A stretch of DNA of 64,000 nucleotides from Allobosea vaviloviae. Lineage in GTDB: Bacteria > Pseudomonadota > Alphaproteobacteria > Rhizobiales > Beijerinckiaceae. The notes under the pieces are model-generated. The model saw only the letters and a program-made list of their open reading frames with translations, made no database searches and was not told the origin of the DNA. Shown here piece after piece: positions 50,767 through 61,635 of the stretch. Numbering within the stretch: the stretch's first letter is position 1; each line of letters opens with the position of its first letter. Position numbers and translations under genes: made by a program. The DNA is taken from the NCBI RefSeq assembly GCF_001298265.1, contig NZ_LGSZ01000047.1, positions 62,001 to 126,000 of the forward strand, in the 5' to 3' direction.

Positions 50767-53118
50767 ATGAGTGACGGCCTGACCGCTTTGGATTCCTCCC
50801 GGCTCACATCGCCACCAGACGATTCCCGTTCGCTCCGCCGTCGTGAGGACCAGCGCTTCCTGACCGGACAAGGCGATTACCTCGACGACCGGCTCGTCAC
50901 GGGCGAACTCTCCGCTGCCGTGCTGCGCTCGCCACATGCCCATGCCACGATTGTCTCGATCGACGTCAGCGCCGCCGCAGCCCTGCCCGGCGTGCGCGGC
51001 GTCTTCACCTCGGCCGACCTCGACGGCCTGGGCCCGCTGCCGACCTCGATCACGGTCGCTACCGTCGAGCCGCTGATCGTGCCGCCGCGCCTGCCGCTGG
51101 CAGCGGGGCGGGTCCGCCATGTCGGCGATCCCGTCGCCTTCGTCGTCGCCGACAGCGCGGCGCTGGCACGCGAGGCCTGCGAGCATATCGCGGTTGATTA
51201 CGACATCCTGCCCTCGGTCACCGAGCTGCGTCACGCGCCCGAGCCCGACGCGGCGCAGATCTGGCCGCAGGCGCCGGGCAACCTCGCCTTCCGCTTCCAT
51301 CGGGGCGATGCGGCCGCCGTCGAGAAGGCTTTTGCGAAAGCGGCCCATATCGTCACCTGCGATCTCGTCAACAACCGCATCGTCGCTGCCGCTCTCGAAC
51401 CGCGCATCGCGGTTGGGCGCTTCGACGCAGGTACCGGCGTCTACCATCTCGAGATCAGCGGCGCCTCGGTCCACGCCATCCGCCGCGAACTGGCGGAGGG
51501 CGTCTTCGGCCTGCCGCTGGACAGGATTCAGGTCTCCTGCCCAGATGTCGGCGGCGGCTTCGGCATGAAGAACGTCACCTATCCCGAACATGCGCTGGTG
51601 CTCTGGGCGGCGCGCAAGCTCGACCGGCCGGTGCGCTGGAGCGCCGAGCGCATCGAGGATTTCACCGGCGGCATTCACAGCCGCGACAATCTCAGCACCG
51701 CCAGGCTTGCGCTCGACAGGAAGGGACGCTTTCTCGCGCTCGCCGTCGAGACGATCGGCAATCTCGGCGCCTATGTCTCCTCGCTCGGGCCGGGCAGCGC
51801 GACCAATGCGCCGGCCGCCGCCATGGGCGGGCTCTACGACATCCCCGCGATGACGATGGATGTGCGCGGCGTCTTCACCAACACGGCGCCCATCGACGCC
51901 TATCGCGGTGCCGGAAAGCCGGAGGCGAACTACCTGATCGAACGCCTGGTCGAGAAGGGGGCGCATCAATTGCGGATCGATCCGGCGAAACTGCGCCAGC
52001 GCAACTTTATCCGGACATTCCCGTACCGATCCGCCTTCGGCACGACGATCGACTGCGGCACATTCGGAGAAAATCTCGACCAGGTTCTGCTGGCGGCAGA
52101 CCGGGCCGGCTTCCCGGACCGCAAGCGCGCTGCAAGCAAGCGCGGCAAATTGCGCGGCTTCGGCATCGGCTGCTTTCTGGAGACCTCGCGCGGCCAGCCC
52201 AATGAGGAAGCCTGGCTACGCATGCGCGACGACGGCACAATCGACATGGCGGTCGGCACGCAGTCCAACGGCCAGGGCCACGAGACCTCCTTCGCCCAGG
52301 TCGCGTCGACGAAACTCGGTCTGCCGGTCGAGACCTTCAATCTGGTGCAGGCCGACACGACCCGCGTCCCACGCGGCGGAGGCCATGGCGGCGCCCGCTC
52401 GCTCCACCTCGGCGGCACCGCGCTGGTGATGGCGGCCGACGATCTGATCGCCAAGGCAAAGCCGATCGCGGCGCAGTTGCTGCAGGTGACGCCCGAAGGG
52501 CTCACCTTCGAGAACGGTCGCTTCCATGCCGCTGCCGGGCCTGACGGCGTGAGCCGCGAGATCGACCTCTTCGCCGTGGCGCGGCATGTCCTCGACAGCA
52601 CCGGCCAAGGCGTCGAAAGCCATGGCGACAATGTCTGCGACATCATCACCTTCCCCAATGGCGCGCAGGTCGCCGAGGTCGAGATCGATCCCGAGACCGG
52701 CGCGATCTCGCTGGAACGCTATGTCGCGGTCGACGATTACGGGACCTTGGTCAATCCGCTGCTGACCGAAAGCCAGGTCCATGGCGGGCTGGCCCAGGGC
52801 ATTGGACAGGCCCTGCTGGAGGAGGCCGTTTACGACCCCGATTCCGGCCAGCTCCTCAGCGCGACCTTCATGGACTACGCCATGCCGCGCGCGGACGACC
52901 TGCCCTTCTTCGACCTCGCCATGGTCGAGATTCCGACCAAGGCCAACCCGCTCGGCGTCAAGGGTTCGGGCCAGGCCGGCTGCATCGGCGCGCCGCAGAC
53001 CGTGATGAACGCGGTGCTCGACGCGCTGCGCCCGCTCGGCGTGACGCATCTCGACATGCCCGCCACGCCCGCAAAGGTCTGGCGGGCAATCCGGGATGCA
53101 AAGGCGAAGACCGCTTAG
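50767..53118 (+). CDS. Xanthine dehydrogenase/aldehyde oxidase-family molybdopterin-binding subunit, orphan
   Basis: 783 aa, full length for the large subunit. Family phrases: FLTGQGDYLDD, GGGFGMKN, AYRGAGKPEANYLIERLV, SNGQGHETSFAQV and HGGLAQGIGQALLEE. The AYxCSFR loop of CO dehydrogenase is absent. At the place of the catalytic Glu (KGVGEAG in the family) it reads KGSGQAGCIGAP, with Gln736. No FAD or 2Fe-2S subunit gene is in the window. It would hydroxylate an aromatic ring or aldehyde if active. Its stop overlaps the SDR stop on the other strand by four bases. Confidence 0.88.
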   Translation: MSDGLTALDSSRLTSPPDDSRSLRRREDQRFLTGQGDYLDDRLVTGELSAAVLRSPHAHATIVSIDVSAAAALPGVRGVFTSADLDGLGPLPTSITVATVEPLIVPPRLPLAAGRVRHVGDPVAFVVADSAALAREACEHIAVDYDILPSVTELRHAPEPDAAQIWPQAPGNLAFRFHRGDAAAVEKAFAKAAHIVTCDLVNNRIVAAALEPRIAVGRFDAGTGVYHLEISGASVHAIRRELAEGVFGLPLDRIQVSCPDVGGGFGMKNVTYPEHALVLWAARKLDRPVRWSAERIEDFTGGIHSRDNLSTARLALDRKGRFLALAVETIGNLGAYVSSLGPGSATNAPAAAMGGLYDIPAMTMDVRGVFTNTAPIDAYRGAGKPEANYLIERLVEKGAHQLRIDPAKLRQRNFIRTFPYRSAFGTTIDCGTFGENLDQVLLAADRAGFPDRKRAASKRGKLRGFGIGCFLETSRGQPNEEAWLRMRDDGTIDMAVGTQSNGQGHETSFAQVASTKLGLPVETFNLVQADTTRVPRGGGHGGARSLHLGGTALVMAADDLIAKAKPIAAQLLQVTPEGLTFENGRFHAAAGPDGVSREIDLFAVARHVLDSTGQGVESHGDNVCDIITFPNGAQVAEVEIDPETGAISLERYVAVDDYGTLVNPLLTESQVHGGLAQGIGQALLEEAVYDPDSGQLLSATFMDYAMPRADDLPFFDLAMVEIPTKANPLGVKGSGQAGCIGAPQTVMNAVLDALRPLGVTHLDMPATPAKVWRAIRDAKAKTA

Positions 53119-53882
53119 CTCATCACCAACCCGCCATCGACATGCAGTGTCTGGCCGGTGACGAAGCCGCTCCAGTCAGAGGCCAGGAACAGCACCGGGC
53201 CTGCCACATCCTCCGGGGTCGCGATCCGCCCCAGCGGGGTCTGCGCGATCAGCATGTCCTTGACCGCCTCGCGCGTTCCCCGGCTGGCATCGGTCGGATA
53301 GACCAGCCCCGGCGCGACGCAGTTCACCCGGATGCCGAGCGGCCCGAGTTCCGTCGCGAGATTGCGGCTGAAGCCGATCAACGCGGCCTTGGCCGTCGTG
53401 TAGTCGTGATAGGCGATGCTCGGCCGCGCCACGAGATCGGTCGCCATGTTGACGATCGAGCCCCTGCCCCGCTGCCGCATCAAGGGCAGCACGGCCTGGC
53501 AGACAGTGTAGGTCGCCTTCAGCGCCCCATCGACTTGCGCCTGATAGGCCGACCACGGCGTTTCCCAGAAACGCGCCCGGTCGTCGGGGTCAAAGACATA
53601 GGGCGCGAATGCGTTGTTGACGACGGCATCGAGCCGGCCGGCCTCCTCGGCGATACGAGCGATCATCGCTGCGACCGCCTCCGGGTCGGTGACATCGGCC
53701 GCGATAGCGACCGCCTGCCCGCCCGCCGCCCGGCAGGCCTCGACGACCGCCTGCGCCGCCGCCTCGCTGCGCCTGTAGTTCACGATCACCAACCCGCCCT
53801 CGGCGGCGAAGGCTTTTGCGAGCGCAGCGCCGATGCCCCGGCTCGCCCCGGTGACGAGGATGGTTTTGTCGCGGAATTTCAT
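53115..53882 (-). CDS. Short-chain dehydrogenase, last gene of the TPP-riboswitch operon
   Basis: 255 aa, FabG-like. Cofactor motif TGASRGIGAALA, NNA (NNAFAPYVF) and the Tyr/Lys pair in HDYTTAKAALIGF. The usual active Ser region reads NMATDLV, with Thr or none in the Ser position. It is separated from the binding-protein gene by 166 bases containing a repeat, so it may be only partly co-transcribed. As the only reductase of that type in the operon, it could reduce the aldehyde made by the LuxC-like enzyme to an alcohol. SDR genes (named oarX, from memory) have been noted in other thiamin regulons. Confidence 0.88.
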   Translation of the reverse strand: MKFRDKTILVTGASRGIGAALAKAFAAEGGLVIVNYRRSEAAAQAVVEACRAAGGQAVAIAADVTDPEAVAAMIARIAEEAGRLDAVVNNAFAPYVFDPDDRARFWETPWSAYQAQVDGALKATYTVCQAVLPLMRQRGRGSIVNMATDLVARPSIAYHDYTTAKAALIGFSRNLATELGPLGIRVNCVAPGLVYPTDASRGTREAVKDMLIAQTPLGRIATPEDVAGPVLFLASDWSGFVTGQTLHVDGGLVMS

Positions 53883-53929
53883 GATGTCTGTCCGACCGGC
53901 GTTCGCGAGCCTTGCATGAAAACCGCCGC

Positions 53930-54023
53930 GTCATCCCGGGCGACCGAAGGGAGACCCGGGATCCATGCCTGAAGCGTTCCGGAATGGGTCCCGGGTCTGC
54001 GCTGCGCTCCGCCCGGGACGACG
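53930..54023. repeat. Palindromic repeat element, family B, between binding protein and SDR genes
   Basis: GTCATCCCGGGCGACCGAAG with GGGAGACCCGGGATCC, then GGGTCCCGGGTCTGC with CCGCCCGGGACGACG: same layout as the copy in phnJ. Confidence 0.92.
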
Positions 54024-54048
54024 GCGCGCTTGAAGGGAAACTTTGTCC

Positions 54049-55158
54049 TCACGGAATCAAATCCGACTTCACGACCTGCCCGATATCGATCGGCTTCCCG
54101 ATCAGCCCGAGCCTGTGGAAGGTGTCGGCCCCCTTCTGCATCAGCTCCGGATCGAAATGGCCGAGACCCTTCGCTGCCGTCGTTGGCGACACCGTGGAGA
54201 TGTTGCGCAGCTTGATGATCTCGAGGTTGAGCGCCTCGTCGCGGCCGTTGATCGCCCGCGTCACCGCGACCTTGGCGGCCTCCTCGGGCTTGGCGATCAT
54301 CCAGGCGGCGCTGTCGCGATAGGCTTCGAGGAAGCGCTTCAGCAGCGGCTTCTTCGCCTCATAGGTTGCCTGCGTCACGACGAAGATGTCGCTCGGCAGG
54401 TTGAGATGGTTCTTCACCTCGATGACGTCGAAATCGGCCAGCCCCTTCGACTTTGCCACCAAGAGCCCGGTATCGGTCGCCGCGGTCGCATCGACCTGTC
54501 CCTGGATCAGCGGGGCGAAGTTGAGCAGGCCTGTGACCTCGATCGTCGCGTCCTTTTCGGTCAGCCCGACCTGGTTCAGCAGCACCTGCAGGTTCTGCCG
54601 CGTGCCGCTCGACAGCGAGTAGACGCCGATGCGCTTGCCCTTGAGATCGGCCGGCCCCTTGATGCCCTTGGCCTTGGGCGCGACGACGTTGAACACGTTC
54701 TGCGGATAGATGTTGTAGATCGCGACCAGCTTCTCGCCCTTGTCGAGCGCCAGATACAGCGCGGCCGGGTCGGTGAAGGCGATGTCGGCCTGGCCGGTCA
54801 GCATGGTCTGGATCGCCGAGCCGCCGCCGGTGCCGGGCACGTAACCGAGATCGATGCCTTTTGCCTTGAAGAAGCCCTTGTCGGGCTCGGCCAGCAGATT
54901 GGTGATCTCGCTGATCGGCTGGCTCCAGCCCGCGACCGTGACCTTGTCGAGGGGTTGGGCATGGGCGGAACCGAAGCTGGAGGCGACCGTCATCAGAGCG
55001 ACAGCCATCCACTCAGCCCTCATCCTGAGGAGCCGCGAAGCGGCGTCTCGAAGGATGCTCCAGATGGCTCTGGCGCCTACTGAACCATCCTTCGAGACGG
55101 CCCTGCGGGCCTCCTCAGGATGAGGGCTCGGGGGAACGAACCGGCCTCTGGCAATCAT
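54049..55158 (-). CDS. ABC transporter substrate-binding protein (NMT1/THI5-like, ThiY type)
   Basis: 369 aa from ATG at 55158, which follows AAGGG six bases after the permease stop. Residues of about 11-46 are encoded by a palindromic repeat, and the export signal (MAVALMTVASSFGSAHAQP) follows only then. An ATG at 55008 with GAGGG before it gives 319 aa and a normal signal. The mature part (KVTVAGWSQPISEITNLLAE; GFFKAKGIDLGYVPGTGGGSAIQ; GQADIAFTDPAAL) is NMT1/THI5-like. Under a TPP riboswitch such proteins bind thiamin precursors or related compounds; here the ligand may be a carboxylic acid. Confidence 0.88.
   Translation of the reverse strand: MIARGRFVPPSPHPEEARRAVSKDGSVGARAIWSILRDAASRLLRMRAEWMAVALMTVASSFGSAHAQPLDKVTVAGWSQPISEITNLLAEPDKGFFKAKGIDLGYVPGTGGGSAIQTMLTGQADIAFTDPAALYLALDKGEKLVAIYNIYPQNVFNVVAPKAKGIKGPADLKGKRIGVYSLSSGTRQNLQVLLNQVGLTEKDATIEVTGLLNFAPLIQGQVDATAATDTGLLVAKSKGLADFDVIEVKNHLNLPSDIFVVTQATYEAKKPLLKRFLEAYRDSAAWMIAKPEEAAKVAVTRAINGRDEALNLEIIKLRNISTVSPTTAAKGLGHFDPELMQKGADTFHRLGLIGKPIDIGQVVKSDLIP
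55018..55127. repeat. Palindromic repeat element, family E, at the 5' end of the binding-protein gene
   Basis: CCTCATCCTGAGGAG at the left pairs with CTCCTCAGGATGAGG at the right; TCTCGAAGGATG and CATCCTTCGAGA pair inside it. The 110-base unit is open in the gene's frame. Confidence 0.92.
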
Positions 55159-55161
55159 GGC

Positions 55162-55911
55162 TTACCCTTTCAGATGGTGGCGCAGCAGCAGCCGCTCGGC
55201 CAGGAGCGCGGCCTGATAGAAGACCATGCCGAGCAGCGTGATCACGATGAAGAGGGCGAACATCAGGCTCGAATCCATCACGCTCTGGGCGGCGATGATC
55301 GAGGCGCCGAGCCCGGCCCGGCCGCCGATGAACTCGCCGACGACGGCGCCCACCAGCGCCAGAACGACCGCGACGCGAAACCCGGCGAGGATGACCGGCA
55401 GCGCGCTGGGCAGCGTCAGCCGCAGCAGCGTCTGGAGCCGGCCCGCACCGAGCATGCGAAAAAGCTCGCGCCGGGACGGATCGACCTGGGCGAGCCCCGT
55501 CAGCGTGTTCTCCATCAGCGGGAAAAAACAGATCAGCGCGGTGATCACCACGGTCGGCGTCATGCCGAAGCCGAACCAGACGATGAAGAGCGGGCCTAAA
55601 GCGAGCTTGGGGACGACCTGGCTGGCGACGATGTAGGGGTGCAGGAGGCGGCGCAGGAAGCTGGCTTCAGCCAGCAGAACGCCGGTCCCGAGCCCAACCG
55701 CGCAGCCGAGCGCCAGCCCCAGCGCCATTTCGGTCGCGGTGAGCCGCAGATGCGGCCAGAGGCGCCCCGTGGCGATCTCGCTCCACAAGGTCGCGAACAC
55801 GGCCGACGGCGCCGGCACGATCAGCGCCGGCACGCCGCTGAGCCGGCACCAGGCCTCCCATGCGGCGAGCAGGGCGACCAACAGCAAAGCCGAGGCGAGG
55901 CGCGTTTTCAT
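55162..55911 (-). CDS. ABC transporter permease (ThiX/SsuC type)
   Basis: 249 aa from ATG at 55911, overlapping the ATPase stop (ATGA). About six membrane segments; the inner-membrane coupling loop is AQVDPSRRELFRMLGAGRLQTLLRLTLPSALPVILAGFRV near 155-195. It belongs to the nitrate/taurine/thiamin-precursor permease group. Third of six genes in the riboswitch operon. Confidence 0.92.
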   Translation of the reverse strand: MKTRLASALLLVALLAAWEAWCRLSGVPALIVPAPSAVFATLWSEIATGRLWPHLRLTATEMALGLALGCAVGLGTGVLLAEASFLRRLLHPYIVASQVVPKLALGPLFIVWFGFGMTPTVVITALICFFPLMENTLTGLAQVDPSRRELFRMLGAGRLQTLLRLTLPSALPVILAGFRVAVVLALVGAVVGEFIGGRAGLGASIIAAQSVMDSSLMFALFIVITLLGMVFYQAALLAERLLLRHHLKG

Positions 55912-56672
55912 GGCGCTTCGTCCATCGCCTGCCGCAACGCCAGGCAGAGCGCATTGAACGGCTGGGCGTAGCGCATCTCCCGGCGGCGCGGACGCGGCAG
56001 ATCGATGGGGAGGTCGTGATGCAGCCTGCCGGACGCCATGATCGCGACGCGGTCGGCGAGATAGACGGCCTCCGTGATGTCGTGGGTGACGAAGAGCACG
56101 GTCGTCGCATGCAGCGCACACAGCGCCAGCAGGTCGTCCTGCAGTTCCTCGCGCGTCAGCGCATCGAGCGCCGCGAAAGGCTCGTCGAGCAGCAGCAGAT
56201 CCGGCTCTGTGATCAGCGCGCGGGCGACCGCGACCCGGCTCTGCTGCCCGCCCGAAAGCTGCCCGGGATGCCGCTCGCCATAGGCGCCGAGCCCGACCCG
56301 GTCCAGCAGGGCGCGGGCCTCGTCGCGATCCTGCGCGGTGGGGCGGCGCTTCAGCGACACTGGCAGCAGCACATTGTCGAGGACGCTGAGCCAGTCTAGC
56401 AGTGTCGGCTGCTGGAAGACGAAGCCGATGCGCGAAACCGGCCCGGTCAGCGCGACGCCGTCAATGCGCACGCTGCCTTGGTCCGGCGCCAGCAGCCCCG
56501 CCGCCAGCTTGAGCAAGGTGGTCTTGCCACTGCCGCTGCGGCCGACCAGGCAATGGAAGGCGCCGCGCGGGATCGCCCAGTCGACGCGATCAACGATCGG
56601 CGGCTCCGCTCCATAGCGAAAGCTCGCCTCGTCGATGACGACGAAGCCATCCGTCCCCGGCTCAATCGACAT
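55908..56672 (-). CDS. ABC transporter ATP-binding protein (ThiZ/SsuB type)
   Basis: 254 aa from ATG at 56672, which lies inside the end of the LuxC-like gene (11-base overlap). Walker A GRSGSGKTTLLKL, signature LSGGQQSRVAVARAL, Walker B LLLLDEPFAALD and the His switch FVTHDITEA. Drives import with the permease above. The 11-base overlap with the LuxC gene shows the importer and the reductase genes are one translational unit. Confidence 0.93.
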   Translation of the reverse strand: MSIEPGTDGFVVIDEASFRYGAEPPIVDRVDWAIPRGAFHCLVGRSGSGKTTLLKLAAGLLAPDQGSVRIDGVALTGPVSRIGFVFQQPTLLDWLSVLDNVLLPVSLKRRPTAQDRDEARALLDRVGLGAYGERHPGQLSGGQQSRVAVARALITEPDLLLLDEPFAALDALTREELQDDLLALCALHATTVLFVTHDITEAVYLADRVAIMASGRLHHDLPIDLPRPRRREMRYAQPFNALCLALRQAMDEAP

Positions 56673-58113
56673 AATCGGCGAAGCCTTCGGCGGCGAGTTC
56701 CGCCGATTGCTCGATCTCGGTGATGGTGACGAGGTCGAGCAGGTTGAACCGTCCGTCATTGTGCCAGCCGGCCTCGGGCGCAGTCATCCGCCCGAAGGCG
56801 CAGATCCGCGTCACGCCGGCCTCGCCCAGCAGCGCCGCGACGCGGAACAGCTCCTCGGGCGCGGCCGCGACGGCTGCGCTCTGGAGGAACGCCCTAAACG
56901 GCGCGATCAGCGGGATGACCGCATCGAGACTGTCCACGGCGACGATCTTGAGCGTGCGGTTCAGCCCGCTCGGCGCCAGCGGCTGCGCCTCTTCGACGAG
57001 CACGACGCTCCAGGGATCGGCGGCGTCGCCGAACACGACCGGGCCCTCCCCATCGAAGGCGCGCATCTCCTCGGTAGTCCGCCAGGACGCGACGCCGGCC
57101 GCCTCCGCCACCGACAGCGCTCGGCGCGGATGCCGGCGCGCGAAGCCCGCCAACTCGCGCGAGACCTGTTCGGCAAAGTCGCGTGGCGAGAGCCTGCCGC
57201 CGCGCGCGACGAACAGCATCTGCGGCGAGTAGCAGCCCTGCTGCTCGTAGCGCGCCACGTCATGGGCGACGAGCCGCGCCAATGGCCCGGCCCGGCGTGT
57301 GTCGAGCGCCGCCGCCGAGACCAGCCCGAAGCCGATCTTGTGGCCATGGGACAGGAAGCGCGCCGTCACCGGCACGCGATCCCGGAGTGCCGCGAGCGCC
57401 GCATTCCCGCCAAAGGCGACGATCGTGTCCGCCTGCGACAGCCAGACCCGTTCGTGCTCGGCGTCGCCGCCCTTCCACCACACGACCGCGAGGCACTCGC
57501 CCAGCTTCGGGTCGATCTCGGCCAAAACCTTCGCAAACCAGCCGGCCAGAAGCGGCTCGGCGCTGGCGACCTTGCCGACCGTTCCCGCCTTGACCAGCAG
57601 CCCCGACATCAGGCTCCACAGCGGCAACCCCGGCACATTGCCGGCCCAGACATGCAACAGCAGCTCCGGCCCATGGGCGCGCGTGAAGCCACCCTTCATC
57701 GCCGGCTGGAAGGCATCGAGAACGCCGGGATTGGCGAAATCCTCGGCGAGGAAGCGCTGCAATTGCGGCGCCCGAAACGTCCTGAGATAGCCCGACAATC
57801 CGAGGCGCACCGTCTCGGCATCGTATCCTGTCACGATCGGCAGCACGGCCTCCGCCTTGCGGCGCCAGGGATCGTCACGGTCGAGCAGCCGCGCCACCGC
57901 CTTGTCGAGGGTCGCGACGATCTGCGCCACGGACAGCGTCTTGAGATAGGCCCGCGCATTCTCCCGGACGCGAGCGGCCAGCGCGAGCGCTTGCGCCTCG
58001 CTGAGCACCGGCACCGACACCTGCACGCTCTCGCCCCAGGCGGCGAAGTCGAGCACGCGCCATTCGACCTCCTCGGCCGACAGCCCTGGCAGATGCCCGG
58101 CGACCTCGCGCAC
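56662..58113 (-). CDS. LuxC-like acyl-protein/acyl-CoA reductase
   Basis: 483 aa, GTG start two bases after the LuxE-like stop. LuxC family core: HVWAGNVPGLPLWSLMSGLLVKAGTVGKVASAEPLLAG and the active Cys294 in YEQQGCYSPQMLFV. In the lux system this enzyme takes an acyl group from LuxE and reduces it with NADPH to an aldehyde. luxA, luxB and luxD are absent, so the role is not light. The TPP riboswitch and the attached importer suggest an acid linked to thiamin. Confidence 0.92.
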   Translation of the reverse strand: MREVAGHLPGLSAEEVEWRVLDFAAWGESVQVSVPVLSEAQALALAARVRENARAYLKTLSVAQIVATLDKAVARLLDRDDPWRRKAEAVLPIVTGYDAETVRLGLSGYLRTFRAPQLQRFLAEDFANPGVLDAFQPAMKGGFTRAHGPELLLHVWAGNVPGLPLWSLMSGLLVKAGTVGKVASAEPLLAGWFAKVLAEIDPKLGECLAVVWWKGGDAEHERVWLSQADTIVAFGGNAALAALRDRVPVTARFLSHGHKIGFGLVSAAALDTRRAGPLARLVAHDVARYEQQGCYSPQMLFVARGGRLSPRDFAEQVSRELAGFARRHPRRALSVAEAAGVASWRTTEEMRAFDGEGPVVFGDAADPWSVVLVEEAQPLAPSGLNRTLKIVAVDSLDAVIPLIAPFRAFLQSAAVAAAPEELFRVAALLGEAGVTRICAFGRMTAPEAGWHNDGRFNLLDLVTITEIEQSAELAAEGFADYVD

Positions 58114-58115
58114 GG

Positions 58116-59225
58116 CTAACCCCGCGCCGCCTTGAGGAACTCCGCGACAGCGAGCGAGCAGCCCTTGGAATCGGCGCCATCCACCCGCCCGAGCAGCTTG
58201 AAGCCGCCCTCGACCATGATCCCGGCATCCTCGGTCAGGATCGCCGAGACGCAGTTGAAATGGGCGAGGTCGTGATGCACCAGCACGCCGGTGGACCCCT
58301 CCGGTAGGTCGCGCCCGCTGACGGGATCGACGACCCGGCTGCGGATCCAGTGCGGCCCGGATTTCACTGGCGGGCAGATCGCGTTGCCGTCGTCGTAGAA
58401 CTGCGTGCTGAGCTCGGTCATCCCGTACATGTTGATGCAGGCGCTGCGGTCTACGCCGAGTGCGGCCGAGAGCGCATCATAGAAGGCATCCGCCCCCATC
58501 TCGCGCGACTGCCCCTTGAAGCCGCCGGTATCGAGGATGCGGCTGCCCTTCGGCAGGGCAAAGCGGCGCCCCTGCGCCGCCAGCGCATCCAGCAGATGCA
58601 CGAAGCTGTAGCTGGCGCCGAGCAGCGCATAGGGGCGCCCGGAGGCCTGCGCCCGCTCTAGCGCAGCGGTCAGCCGGGCGAGATCGAGGCCATCCGCGCC
58701 GATGAAGCCTTCGCTGTCGGCCGTTCCGCACTCCTGCTTCGCCAGCGCGAGATAATGCGCCAGGGACGAGTTCGGCATCGCCTCCTCGTCGGGGAAGAGA
58801 ATGCCCATCTCAATCCGCTCCAGCCCCCGCATGAAGCGCGCTCGAAAATTCACCAGCATCGAGCGGTCCCAGACGGCCAGCGTCGGGTGATGGCTCTTGC
58901 CCCGGACTCCGCCTTGCGTCGTCCCGCTCGTCATGAAGACGCGCTGTGCCCTCTCCGGCGGAGTGCAGCTCAGCGTCATATCCTTGAAGGCGGTGATCGG
59001 CACGGCCGGAATGTCGCGCCAGTCGCGGACCGTGAGCGTGGTGCGCCCGCGCTGGATGGCGAAGCGCCGATAGGGGGGGTTGTTGGCGAACTGGTAGGCG
59101 AAAACGTCGAGCGCCATCCGCTCGAACTCGGCCTCGCTCGCCTCGTCGCGGTCGATGAAGGCGAGCAGCGCCTCGATGATCTCAGCTTCCGTCACGTCCA
59201 GCCATGCCTTCCCACGGGACACCAT
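58116..59225 (-). CDS. LuxE-like acyl-protein synthetase (acid-activating enzyme)
   Basis: 369 aa. Adenylate-forming motifs: MTSGTTQGGVRGKSHH at residues 98-113 and NMYGMTELSTQFYDDG near 265-280. A Cys near the C terminus (Cys356 in SKGCSLAVAEF) sits where LuxE carries its acyl-accepting Cys. The enzyme would activate a free acid with ATP and hand it to LuxC. Start ATG at 59225 has no clear ribosome site; a GTG at 59195 has GGGAAGG upstream and is an alternative. First gene after the riboswitch, 88 bases downstream of it. Confidence 0.9.
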   Translation of the reverse strand: MVSRGKAWLDVTEAEIIEALLAFIDRDEASEAEFERMALDVFAYQFANNPPYRRFAIQRGRTTLTVRDWRDIPAVPITAFKDMTLSCTPPERAQRVFMTSGTTQGGVRGKSHHPTLAVWDRSMLVNFRARFMRGLERIEMGILFPDEEAMPNSSLAHYLALAKQECGTADSEGFIGADGLDLARLTAALERAQASGRPYALLGASYSFVHLLDALAAQGRRFALPKGSRILDTGGFKGQSREMGADAFYDALSAALGVDRSACINMYGMTELSTQFYDDGNAICPPVKSGPHWIRSRVVDPVSGRDLPEGSTGVLVHHDLAHFNCVSAILTEDAGIMVEGGFKLLGRVDGADSKGCSLAVAEFLKAARG

Positions 59226-59312
59226 GGTCCGGCGACATGCCTTGCACGGGGCCTTGAGAATCCGGCCTTCGGCGCGAGCCTGGAAAAGGAGCGGCGATCC
59301 GCCCGATGTCCC

Positions 59313-59415
59313 GCATCCCTACGCCGGTATGAACCGGATCAGGTTCGGAGGGTCACCGCGTCGTCCGGATAGGACCCGAACCGGCGGAATCTCAGCCTCC
59401 TAGCGAGGCCCCCCT
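59313..59415 (-). ncRNA. TPP (thiamin pyrophosphate) riboswitch
   Basis: On the minus strand the class signature reads GGGGGGCC...GAGGCTGAGATT, then ACCCTCCGAACCTGATCC and GGTTCATACCGGCGTAGGGA, which matches the THI element including CTGAGA, GAACCTGATC and the closing CGTAGGGA. It lies upstream of the LuxE-like gene with no other gene between, so thiamin pyrophosphate should reduce expression of the whole operon. I could not assign a terminator in the 88-base expression platform; hiding of the ribosome site is more likely. Confidence 0.96.
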
Positions 59416-59549
59416 TGGAACGCGGCCAGCATGACGGCGCGCATGCGGCGATGTCAAGAATGGCGGCCGAACAGCCGCCATGGCGCCAGGGATGAAACAT
59501 TGCGGCGGCGACGCGCGTTGTCGAAGCGAACCACGCAAGGAAACGAAAC

Positions 59550-60172: not shown

Positions 60173-60262
60173 TGGCGGACAGGGAGGGATTTGAACCCCC
60201 GATACCCTTGCGGGTATGCCGCATTTCGAGTGCGGTGCATTCAACCACTCTGCCACCTGTCC
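60173..60262 (-). tRNA. tRNA-Ser (anticodon CGA)
   Basis: Acceptor arm GGACAGG/CCTGTCC with discriminator G and encoded CCA at 60175-60173. Anticodon loop CTCGAAA, anticodon CGA (Ser codon UCG). A long variable arm (ATACCCGCAAGGGTAT) and T arm GGGGGTTCAAATCCC fit a class II tRNA-Ser. Confidence 0.97.
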
Positions 60263-60380
60263 GCGGTCGCCTTCGGTCGAAGCAGGCGGGTTACTACACG
60301 CGGCTTCGGGCCAAAACAAGTCTCCGGTCGCAACAAGTCGTGTGCCCGTCATATTTCGGGCAGGGAGCGCGTGCTTTCCC

Positions 60381-60409
60381 TTGACCTCACGAGGCCATCC
60401 GACTATCGA
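60381..60409 (+). promoter_or_regulatory. Probable housekeeping promoter of rplU-rpmA
   Basis: TTGACC at 60381 and TATCGA at 60404, 17 bases apart, 173 bases before the rplU start. The rest of the 319-base gap after the tRNA holds no gene that I can support; a structured leader is possible. Confidence 0.5.
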
Positions 60410-60581
60410 GCCTCATCCGGCGTGGGGAAACCCGCGCCCGATCTCTTTTGGCCTCATGGTGTCGCGGTTTCGCGAGCGGGGGCCGGCAAGAGCGAACCCG
60501 ACCCGCAACGACTGCCAAAAAGCTGTCCCGCGTGCCCTCCCCGGAGGCCATGACAGGGCAGGGCCGAACATGGAGGATAAA

Positions 60582-61268
60582 ATGTTCGCAGTCATCAAGA
60601 CCGGCGGAAAGCAATTCCGCGTTGCCGCCAACGACCGCATCACCACCGCCAAGATCGAAGGCAACCCGGGCGACACCGTCGCCTTCGGGACCGTGCTGAT
60701 GCTCACCGACGGCGAGAAGACCACGCTCGACGCCAAGGCCCTCTCCGAGATCACGGTTGCTGCCGAGATCGTCGAGCAGGCCCGTGGCGAGAAGGTCATC
60801 GCCTTCAAGAAGCGTCGCCGCCAGAATTCGAAGCGCAAGCGCGGTTTCCGTGCCGAGCTGACCGTCATTCGCATCACCGACATCCTCACCGGCGGCAAGA
60901 AGCCGGAGATGAAGAAGGGCGAGGCGTCCCCCGTCGCGCTGAAGGCCGCCTCCACCGAGACCAAGGGCAAGGCCGCTCCGAAGGCTGCCAAGGCCACCGA
61001 GGCCGGCGCCATCGACGCCTCCAACCTCTCGCTGATCTCGGGCGTCGGCCCGACCATCGAGAAGAAGCTGCGCGCCGCCGGCATCACCTCCTGGAACGAC
61101 ATCGCGTCCTGGAGCGAGGCCGATGTCGCCAAGTGGGACGAGGAGCTCAAGCTCCGCGGCCGCGCCACCCGTGAGGAATGGGTCGAGCAGGCCAAGGAAC
61201 TCCTGGCCGGTAAGCCCCCGCGGGCCAAGGCTGACCAGGCCGAGCAGGCTTCCGGCGAGGACTACTGA
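60582..61268 (+). CDS. rplU: 50S ribosomal protein L21 with C-terminal helix-hairpin-helix extension
   Basis: 228 aa against about 103 for plain L21. ATG at 60582 follows GGAGG. Residues 1-105 are L21 (MFAVIKTGGKQFRV; KVIAFKKRRRQNSKRKRGFR). After a Lys/Ala linker, residues of about 145-215 form a helix-hairpin-helix domain (LSLISGVGPTIEKKLRAAGI; SWNDIASWSEADVAKWDEEL). The extension is known in this bacterial order. Operon with rpmA. Confidence 0.94.
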   Translation: MFAVIKTGGKQFRVAANDRITTAKIEGNPGDTVAFGTVLMLTDGEKTTLDAKALSEITVAAEIVEQARGEKVIAFKKRRRQNSKRKRGFRAELTVIRITDILTGGKKPEMKKGEASPVALKAASTETKGKAAPKAAKATEAGAIDASNLSLISGVGPTIEKKLRAAGITSWNDIASWSEADVAKWDEELKLRGRATREEWVEQAKELLAGKPPRAKADQAEQASGEDY

Positions 61269-61368
61269 CGCACCCCGTCAGTCCGTCTCCGTCTTTCGCG
61301 CCCGGACCGGCTGGCTTTTGCCGCCGATTCGGGTTAGAGACCACATATCAGTTTTGAGGTAGGGCGTT

Positions 61369-61635
61369 ATGGCTCATAAAAAGGCAGGCGGTTCATCCCG
61401 CAACGGTCGCGACTCCGCAGGCAGGCGCCTCGGCGTCAAGAAGTTCGGCGACCAGGCCGTGATTCCGGGCAACATCATCATTCGGCAGCGTGGGACCACC
61501 TGGCATCCCGGCGCCAATGTCGGCATGGGCAAAGACCATACCCTCTTTGCGACGACGACCGGTCGCGTCCGATTCACGACCAAACTCGGCCGAGCTTTCG
61601 TGAACGTAGTCCCGGCCCAAGAGGCCGCAGAATAA
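61369..61635 (+). CDS. rpmA: 50S ribosomal protein L27
   Basis: 88 aa. [22 protein letters not shown] is the typical N terminus that reaches the peptidyl-transferase centre. Second gene of the rplU operon, followed by a strong terminator. Confidence 0.97.

Follow-up and report, generated by a model that had tools for sequence, protein, structure and literature searches.

A LuxC-LuxE-like operon behind a thiamin pyrophosphate riboswitch and its possible role in recycling a carboxylated thiamin pyrimidine

Background

Two described systems stand close to the locus reported here. Luminous bacteria use the LuxC-LuxE pair to turn an acid into an acyl-enzyme and then into an aldehyde, and cysteines of these enzymes carry the acyl group. 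The ThiXYZ/ThiY system salvages N-formyl-aminopyrimidine (FAMP), together with YlmB and TenA. Our locus lies in Allobosea vaviloviae, in a stretch of 64,000 nucleotides (contig NZ_LGSZ01000047.1, positions 62,001 to 126,000); "the window" below means this whole stretch. It is an operon of six genes downstream of a thiamin pyrophosphate (TPP) riboswitch.

That this operon is a conserved cassette carrying a TPP element is close to certain. Its function is a matter of graded likelihood. The pyrimidine is, with good confidence, the half of thiamin that is salvaged. The operon is probably a TPP-repressed salvage operon for that half, which would import a carboxylated pyrimidine and reduce it to hydroxymethylpyrimidine (HMP).

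The operon has its Pfam families, gene pairing and catalytic cysteines in common with the LuxC-LuxE fatty acid reductase of luminous bacteria (PDB 7xc6; Photorhabdus lux). It differs in having no luxA, luxB or luxD, in scoring below the lux equivalog cut-offs, and in adding a TPP riboswitch, a transporter and a short-chain dehydrogenase/reductase (SDR). With FAMP salvage it shares a ThiY-type binding protein under a TPP element, an ATP-binding cassette (ABC) importer, and salvage on the pyrimidine side. Here however acid reduction would replace deformylation and amine hydrolysis, and ylmB and tenA are not among the six genes. We somewhat favour the view that the operon salvages a thiamin precursor while working like the LuxC-LuxE reductase.

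Nothing was found in the open-licence literature that joins LuxC or LuxE to thiamin or to TPP control, which agrees with an earlier note on this DNA, whose author knew of no system of this kind. A THI-linked SDR, "oarX", was reportedly described by Rodionov et al. 2002 and is possibly of the same family as the operon SDR. Should that work show this LuxE-LuxC operon, the linkage would already be partly published. TPP riboswitch regulons were surveyed in PMC3766115, which speaks of 20 ortholog groups for biosynthesis and 19 for transporters; there too, biosynthesis and precursor-transport genes stand under RF00059. In the main text of that paper, luxC, oarX and short-chain are without a match. 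PMC3219970 was considered as a precedent and rejected: in the parts of it that matter here, a luxCDE reporter strain and the thiC riboswitch occur separately.

The operon in the window

The riboswitch and the six genes are as follows.

59299..59425, minus strand: TPP riboswitch aptamer (THI element) with an enlarged variable stem; Rfam RF00059, 66.1 bits, E 9.1e-11
58116..59195 (open reading frame (ORF) open to ATG 59225), minus strand: LuxE-like acid-activating acyl-protein synthetase; Pfam PF04443; PDB 7xc6_E, 1.1e-20
56662..58113, minus strand: LuxC-like acyl reductase, catalytic Cys294; Pfam PF05893, 2e-83; PDB 7xc6_A, 6.5e-12
55908..56759, minus strand: ABC transporter ATPase (longest ORF); Pfam ABC_tran, 2.7e-32
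55162..55911, minus strand: ABC transporter permease (start taken from relatives; longest ORF to 56121); Pfam BPD_transp_1, 6e-30
54049..55158, minus strand: THI5/ThiY-type substrate-binding protein; Pfam NMT1/THI5 PF09084, 155.6 bits
53115..53882, minus strand: SDR, YxxxK Tyr161/Lys165; Pfam PF13561; NCBIfam NF006393, 296.4 bits against a cut-off of 292

The riboswitch score exceeds the Rfam gathering cut-off of 54.3 bits, and the THI element that the earlier note had placed at 59313-59415 lies inside the match at 59425-59299. The order, strand and coordinates of the six genes in that note were borne out by ORFs and Pfam, except for its LuxE start at ATG 59225. This start is probably GTG 59195, which has GGAAGG upstream and is in register with relatives. 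By comparison with relatives, the ATPase also probably starts downstream of 56759, the mechanical longest ORF. The same comparison suggests about 55162-55911 for the permease, the start at 56121 again being that of the mechanical longest ORF. The gap is 2 nt between LuxE and LuxC, 3 nt between permease and binding protein, and 166 nt between binding protein and SDR; from LuxC to the permease the ORFs overlap. Relatives put this genome close to Bosea. It contains three TPP elements, and going by coordinates the two others stand ahead of thiC-thiM and thiG-thiE.

The enzymes belong to the lux families. The LuxE-like protein scores 68.8 bits with Pfam PF04443 (gathering cut-off 24.9) and the LuxC-like protein 280.9 bits with PF05893 (cut-off 21). 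The closest solved structures for both are in the LuxC-LuxE complex, PDB 7xc6. Against the NCBIfam equivalogs, the scores are 70.7 bits for LuxE (NF052244, cut-off 550) and 73.1 bits for LuxC (NF052251, cut-off 750). Since these are far below the cut-offs, the two proteins are relatives of the luminescence enzymes and not those enzymes themselves. As the earlier note had it, luxA, luxB and luxD are missing from the six-gene run; the remaining genome was not searched for luxAB.

The catalytic residues are kept throughout. Cys356 of the LuxE-like protein (longer-ORF numbering), the acyl acceptor, is present in 95 of 95 aligned rows, and Cys294 of the LuxC-like protein in 94 of 94; both align with the corresponding Photorhabdus cysteines. 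Tyr161 and Lys165 of the SDR are kept in 92/92 rows. By analogy with lux, the pair may well perform the same acid-to-aldehyde chemistry, and we infer that the SDR takes the aldehyde to an alcohol.

The remaining operon proteins are above their Pfam cut-offs as well, with 112.7 bits for ABC_tran, 104.8 for BPD_transp_1 and 207.1 for adh_short_C2. In a structural comparison with VIA-align, the fold of the binding protein is nearest to ThiY, that of the ThiXYZ importer.

Conservation and distribution

A scan of genome contigs gave 362 relatives, of which the best 80 are called the named relatives here. They come from Bosea, Methylobacterium, Azospirillum, Pantoea, Erwinia, Enterobacter, Asaia, Rhodoferax, Polaromonas, Geobacillus, Domibacillus and others. 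LuxC accompanies LuxE in all 80, and the SDR is present in 78, the other two loci (L031, L099) reaching contig ends first.

In 78 of the 80, a TPP element precedes the first aligned LuxE residue by 60-122 nt. Seventy of these elements are strong matches of a custom TPP model; of the eight elements used to make this model, six came from the operon itself, and it is thus biased toward them. By Rfam, four of the other eight are above the cut-off (L084, L087, L100, L102), and four reach 48.8-53.6 bits against 54.3 (L093, L099, L101, L103). One locus, L047, has a partial match only and ends at a contig edge. Applied to 1.54 Mb at E <= 1.9e-15, the custom model has 71 matches, 70 before LuxE and one before ThiC. 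The latter belongs to a locus (L092) with the order TPP element, ThiC, TPP element, LuxE operon, and the position of ThiC there agrees with G568. Chance linkage of TPP elements and LuxE is rejected on the strength of 70 in 71 strong model matches and 78 in 80 named relatives. The earlier note would have given up its reading had such linkage been missing from other genomes; LuxE-LuxC pairs do stand under TPP elements elsewhere, distant genomes included.

Within the family of the window, 149 sampled genomes yielded five relatives at 73-88% identity, each with a TPP element above the cut-off, and a sixth at only 24%. In the genus, two of the six other genomes sampled have the operon. At the level of the order, four matches came from 397 sampled genomes: the window genome, one already counted, G521 from another family (58%), and one at 31%. 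That last locus (L022), followed for 11 kb to its contig end, shows neither a TPP element nor, at 30% identity and >80 bits, any of the six genes.

Bacilli have the cassette too. Of 398 sampled genomes 11 matched, one being Domibacillus again. Among the ten further loci, eight have a TPP element above the cut-off that either heads the operon or adjoins it; two have weaker ones, at 42.2 (L123) and 52.7 bits (L124). On plasmids, 30 records matched and seven loci were opened, six with a TPP element above the cut-off and one at 49.0 bits. The viral contigs gave 36 pattern matches, with no relative among them.

The cassette appears to travel as a unit. For LuxE, LuxC, SDR and binding protein, the correlations between pairwise distances are 0.85-0.95; since the rows are related, these values carry no claim of significance. 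The LuxE tree (96 rows) places 11 gammaproteobacterial rows inside a clade that also holds 35 Rhizobiales-type rows (support 100/98), and Firmicutes are deeper; the Photorhabdus outgroup is very long, so that the root serves for drawing only. This nesting points to a passage from Alpha- to Gammaproteobacteria, in which the riboswitch probably moved along. Within a few kb of each side of the 80 loci (L024-L103), none of the flanking gene families listed occurs in more than 8. The larger families do not reach beyond close relatives, and a few that cover 3-5 loci span different genera.

Two plasmids, from Lactiplantibacillus and Levilactobacillus (L104, L105; 10.3 and 21.2 kb), carry an NCS2-LuxE-LuxC-SDR set with identical protein accessions. 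The proposed vitamin cassette has therefore moved recently between bacteria found in food. In the plasmid annotations (L104, L105, L107, L108, L110) the LuxE-like protein appears either as a long-chain fatty acid--CoA ligase or as an acyl-CoA synthetase; the LuxC-like protein is given as an acyl-CoA reductase and carries a bioluminescence Gene Ontology term.

The importer is sometimes absent, and in some Firmicutes a nucleobase-type NCS2 permease takes its position. In nine loci of Pantoea, Erwinia and Enterobacter (L055, L066, L067, L069, L071, L074, L076, L081, L082), TPP element, LuxE, LuxC and SDR are retained and no ABC genes are seen, unlike in the related rows L049 and L050, which retain them.

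Thiamin genes in operon genomes

Thiamin genes were counted in 57 genomes with the operon: the window genome, six further relatives, and 50 of the 80 named loci, chosen for diversity and not randomly. ThiE is in all 57 (in G548 in short pieces only). ThiD is in all 57 too, and in 67 of 67 when ten Bacilli are added (66 above the cut-off, G560 in pieces). In G560, Pantoea rodasii, ThiD is split on contig 86 between 112324-112542 and 112536-113093, which is either an assembly error or a broken gene. ThiG is strong in 53 of the 57, weak only in three, and not found in G521.

ThiM is strong in 22 genomes, weak only in eight (E 1.2e-7 to 7.6e-4; G576 is above the Pfam cut-off) and not found in 27. 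The genomes with none or a weak match include one of the window's genus (G110), Enterovirga, Azorhizobium, and every Azospirillum and Methylobacterium tested. Thiamin pyrophosphokinase was found in two of the 57 and in none of the other 55. Unless other kinases serve, a product dependent on ThiM or the pyrophosphokinase would be of no use to most of the 57, and HMP would be usable in every one of them. The earlier note had suggested asking whether thiM and thiD co-occur with the operon; thiD does, and thiM mostly does not.

Thirteen operon genomes have no ThiC. Twelve of these also have no ThiM match, and G521, which is 64% complete, has one. Nine keep a strong ThiG (G532, G564, G565, G567, G570, G571, G573, G574, G575). 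Twelve of the thirteen are metagenome-assembled and the other is the 64% complete one, so gaps could remove genes; ThiE and ThiD are nonetheless in all 13. In marine bacterioplankton, according to PMC11452348, thiamin auxotrophy most often takes the form of a missing thiC.

Proposed function

The following sequence of steps would account for the operon. At low TPP the operon would be switched on; this response is predicted from the riboswitch. The THI5/ThiY-type importer, or the NCS2 permease in some Firmicutes, would bring in a carboxylated pyrimidine. The LuxE-like enzyme would activate this acid with ATP and load it on Cys356, after which the LuxC-like enzyme would accept the acyl group on Cys294 and reduce it with NADPH to the aldehyde. 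The SDR would then make HMP, to be phosphorylated by ThiD and coupled to thiazole by ThiE. The substrate we consider the best candidate, with moderate confidence, is 4-amino-2-methylpyrimidine-5-carboxylate. A pyrimidine carboxylic acid is known as a urinary breakdown product of thiamin.

Several observations weigh against this proposal. ThiC is present in 44 of the 57 operon genomes (in a few in fragments) and in 11 of 12 Bacilli, and the operon is therefore not simply an auxotroph's replacement. Distribution is patchy, with two of six genomes in the genus, five close relatives in 149 of the family and 11 in 398 Bacilli. Two loci, L085 and L021, have the operon and no detectable TPP element. 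Folding of the leader is no better than that of shuffles (z 0.91), and no expression platform was identified. A thiamin-bound protein is the second-best fold match of the binding protein, whose gene is in 63 of the 80 loci and was not seen in 17 (one at a contig end). L127 and L129 have no ABC or NCS2 gene in the cassette, which leaves uptake unexplained. In L123 thiM directly follows the SDR, and in Niallia (L106) the operon is headed by ThiW, a transporter usually linked to thiazole; both fit a thiazole route or mixed salvage. Finally, the B1 vitamers of PMC10881298, as given in a portion of that paper, are the pyrimidines HMP, aminomethylpyrimidine (AmMP) and FAMP and the thiazoles hydroxyethylthiazole (HET) and carboxy-HET (cHET), with no carboxylated pyrimidine among them.

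Other local contexts were also recorded. In L085 (9600-10040; short leader) and L021 (11160-11600), control may have been lost or exchanged naturally. In L129 there is a divergent TPP element with a PF09819 membrane protein.

Alternatives

Salvage or detoxification of a different pyrimidine acid, with a longer side chain, a modified ring or of the bacimethrin type of antivitamin, yielding HMP or a harmless alcohol, has the same support from genome context as the 5-carboxylate; it is unlikely, if the likeliest of the alternatives. Persistence of the operon in the 13 ThiC-less genomes would suit a nutrient source better than it would suit detoxification alone.

Only marginally less probable is thiazole salvage, in which 4-methylthiazole-5-acetate or another thiazole acid would be imported, reduced to HET and phosphorylated by ThiM. 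The contexts of L123 and L106 fit this, as do the 22 genomes with a strong ThiM. It is opposed by the 27 without ThiM and the eight with only weak matches, by a strong ThiG in 53 of 57, and by a binding protein nearest to ThiY. Import of oxidised thiamin (thiamin acetic acid) and its reduction back to thiamin is doubtful, a little more so than thiazole salvage: with a pyrophosphokinase in two of 57 genomes, a count that does not extend to ThiK-type kinases, most of them could hardly make use of free thiamin. The earlier note had offered thiazole acetate, oxidised thiamin and pyrimidine carboxylate together. The last fits best; the first lacks a convincing ThiM in 35 of the 57 genomes, and the second a pyrophosphokinase in 55.

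A reduction of fatty or other carboxylic acids that is incidentally under TPP control would match the enzyme families, which are those of the LuxC-LuxE fatty acid reductase, but it is very improbable given the equivalog scores (70.7/550 and 73.1/750 bits), the ThiY-type or nucleobase-type transporters, and the thiamin genes that join the operon in L123, L106 and L131 (where a single run behind the TPP element holds a tenI/thiE-type gene (PF02581), thiO, thiS, thiG and thiF and then the cassette) or adjoin it as ThiC in L092.

Neighbouring genes

On the plus strand, 50767-53118 encodes a large molybdopterin-binding subunit of the CO/xanthine/aldehyde dehydrogenase type. It converges on the SDR gene, with ORF ends overlapping by 4 nt, and such a gene adjoins the LuxE-LuxC operon in 8 of the 80 loci. 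A tRNA gene with a long variable arm, probably tRNA-Ser, is at 60176-60262 on the minus strand (Rfam tRNA, 59.6 bits). At 60216-61635 on the plus strand, the ORFs look by eye like ribosomal protein L21, extended by a long stretch at its C-terminus, and then L27.

Significance

That the LuxC-LuxE pair serves as an undescribed B1 recycling route for carboxylated pyrimidine, in a cassette carried between phyla and also on plasmids, is in our judgement slightly the likelier case. The proposal gives a testable function to a widespread operon which, in the opened plasmid records, is labelled as a fatty-acid--CoA ligase or acyl-CoA synthetase with an acyl-CoA reductase.

If it is true, a further B1 vitamer is to be expected, one that could pass between bacteria of soil, plants, the sea and food. 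Surveys confined to HMP, AmMP, FAMP, HET and cHET, the list in the portion of PMC10881298 cited above, would overlook part of the B1 economy. The light-making LuxC-LuxE pair would then have a second widespread role, in ordinary vitamin chemistry.

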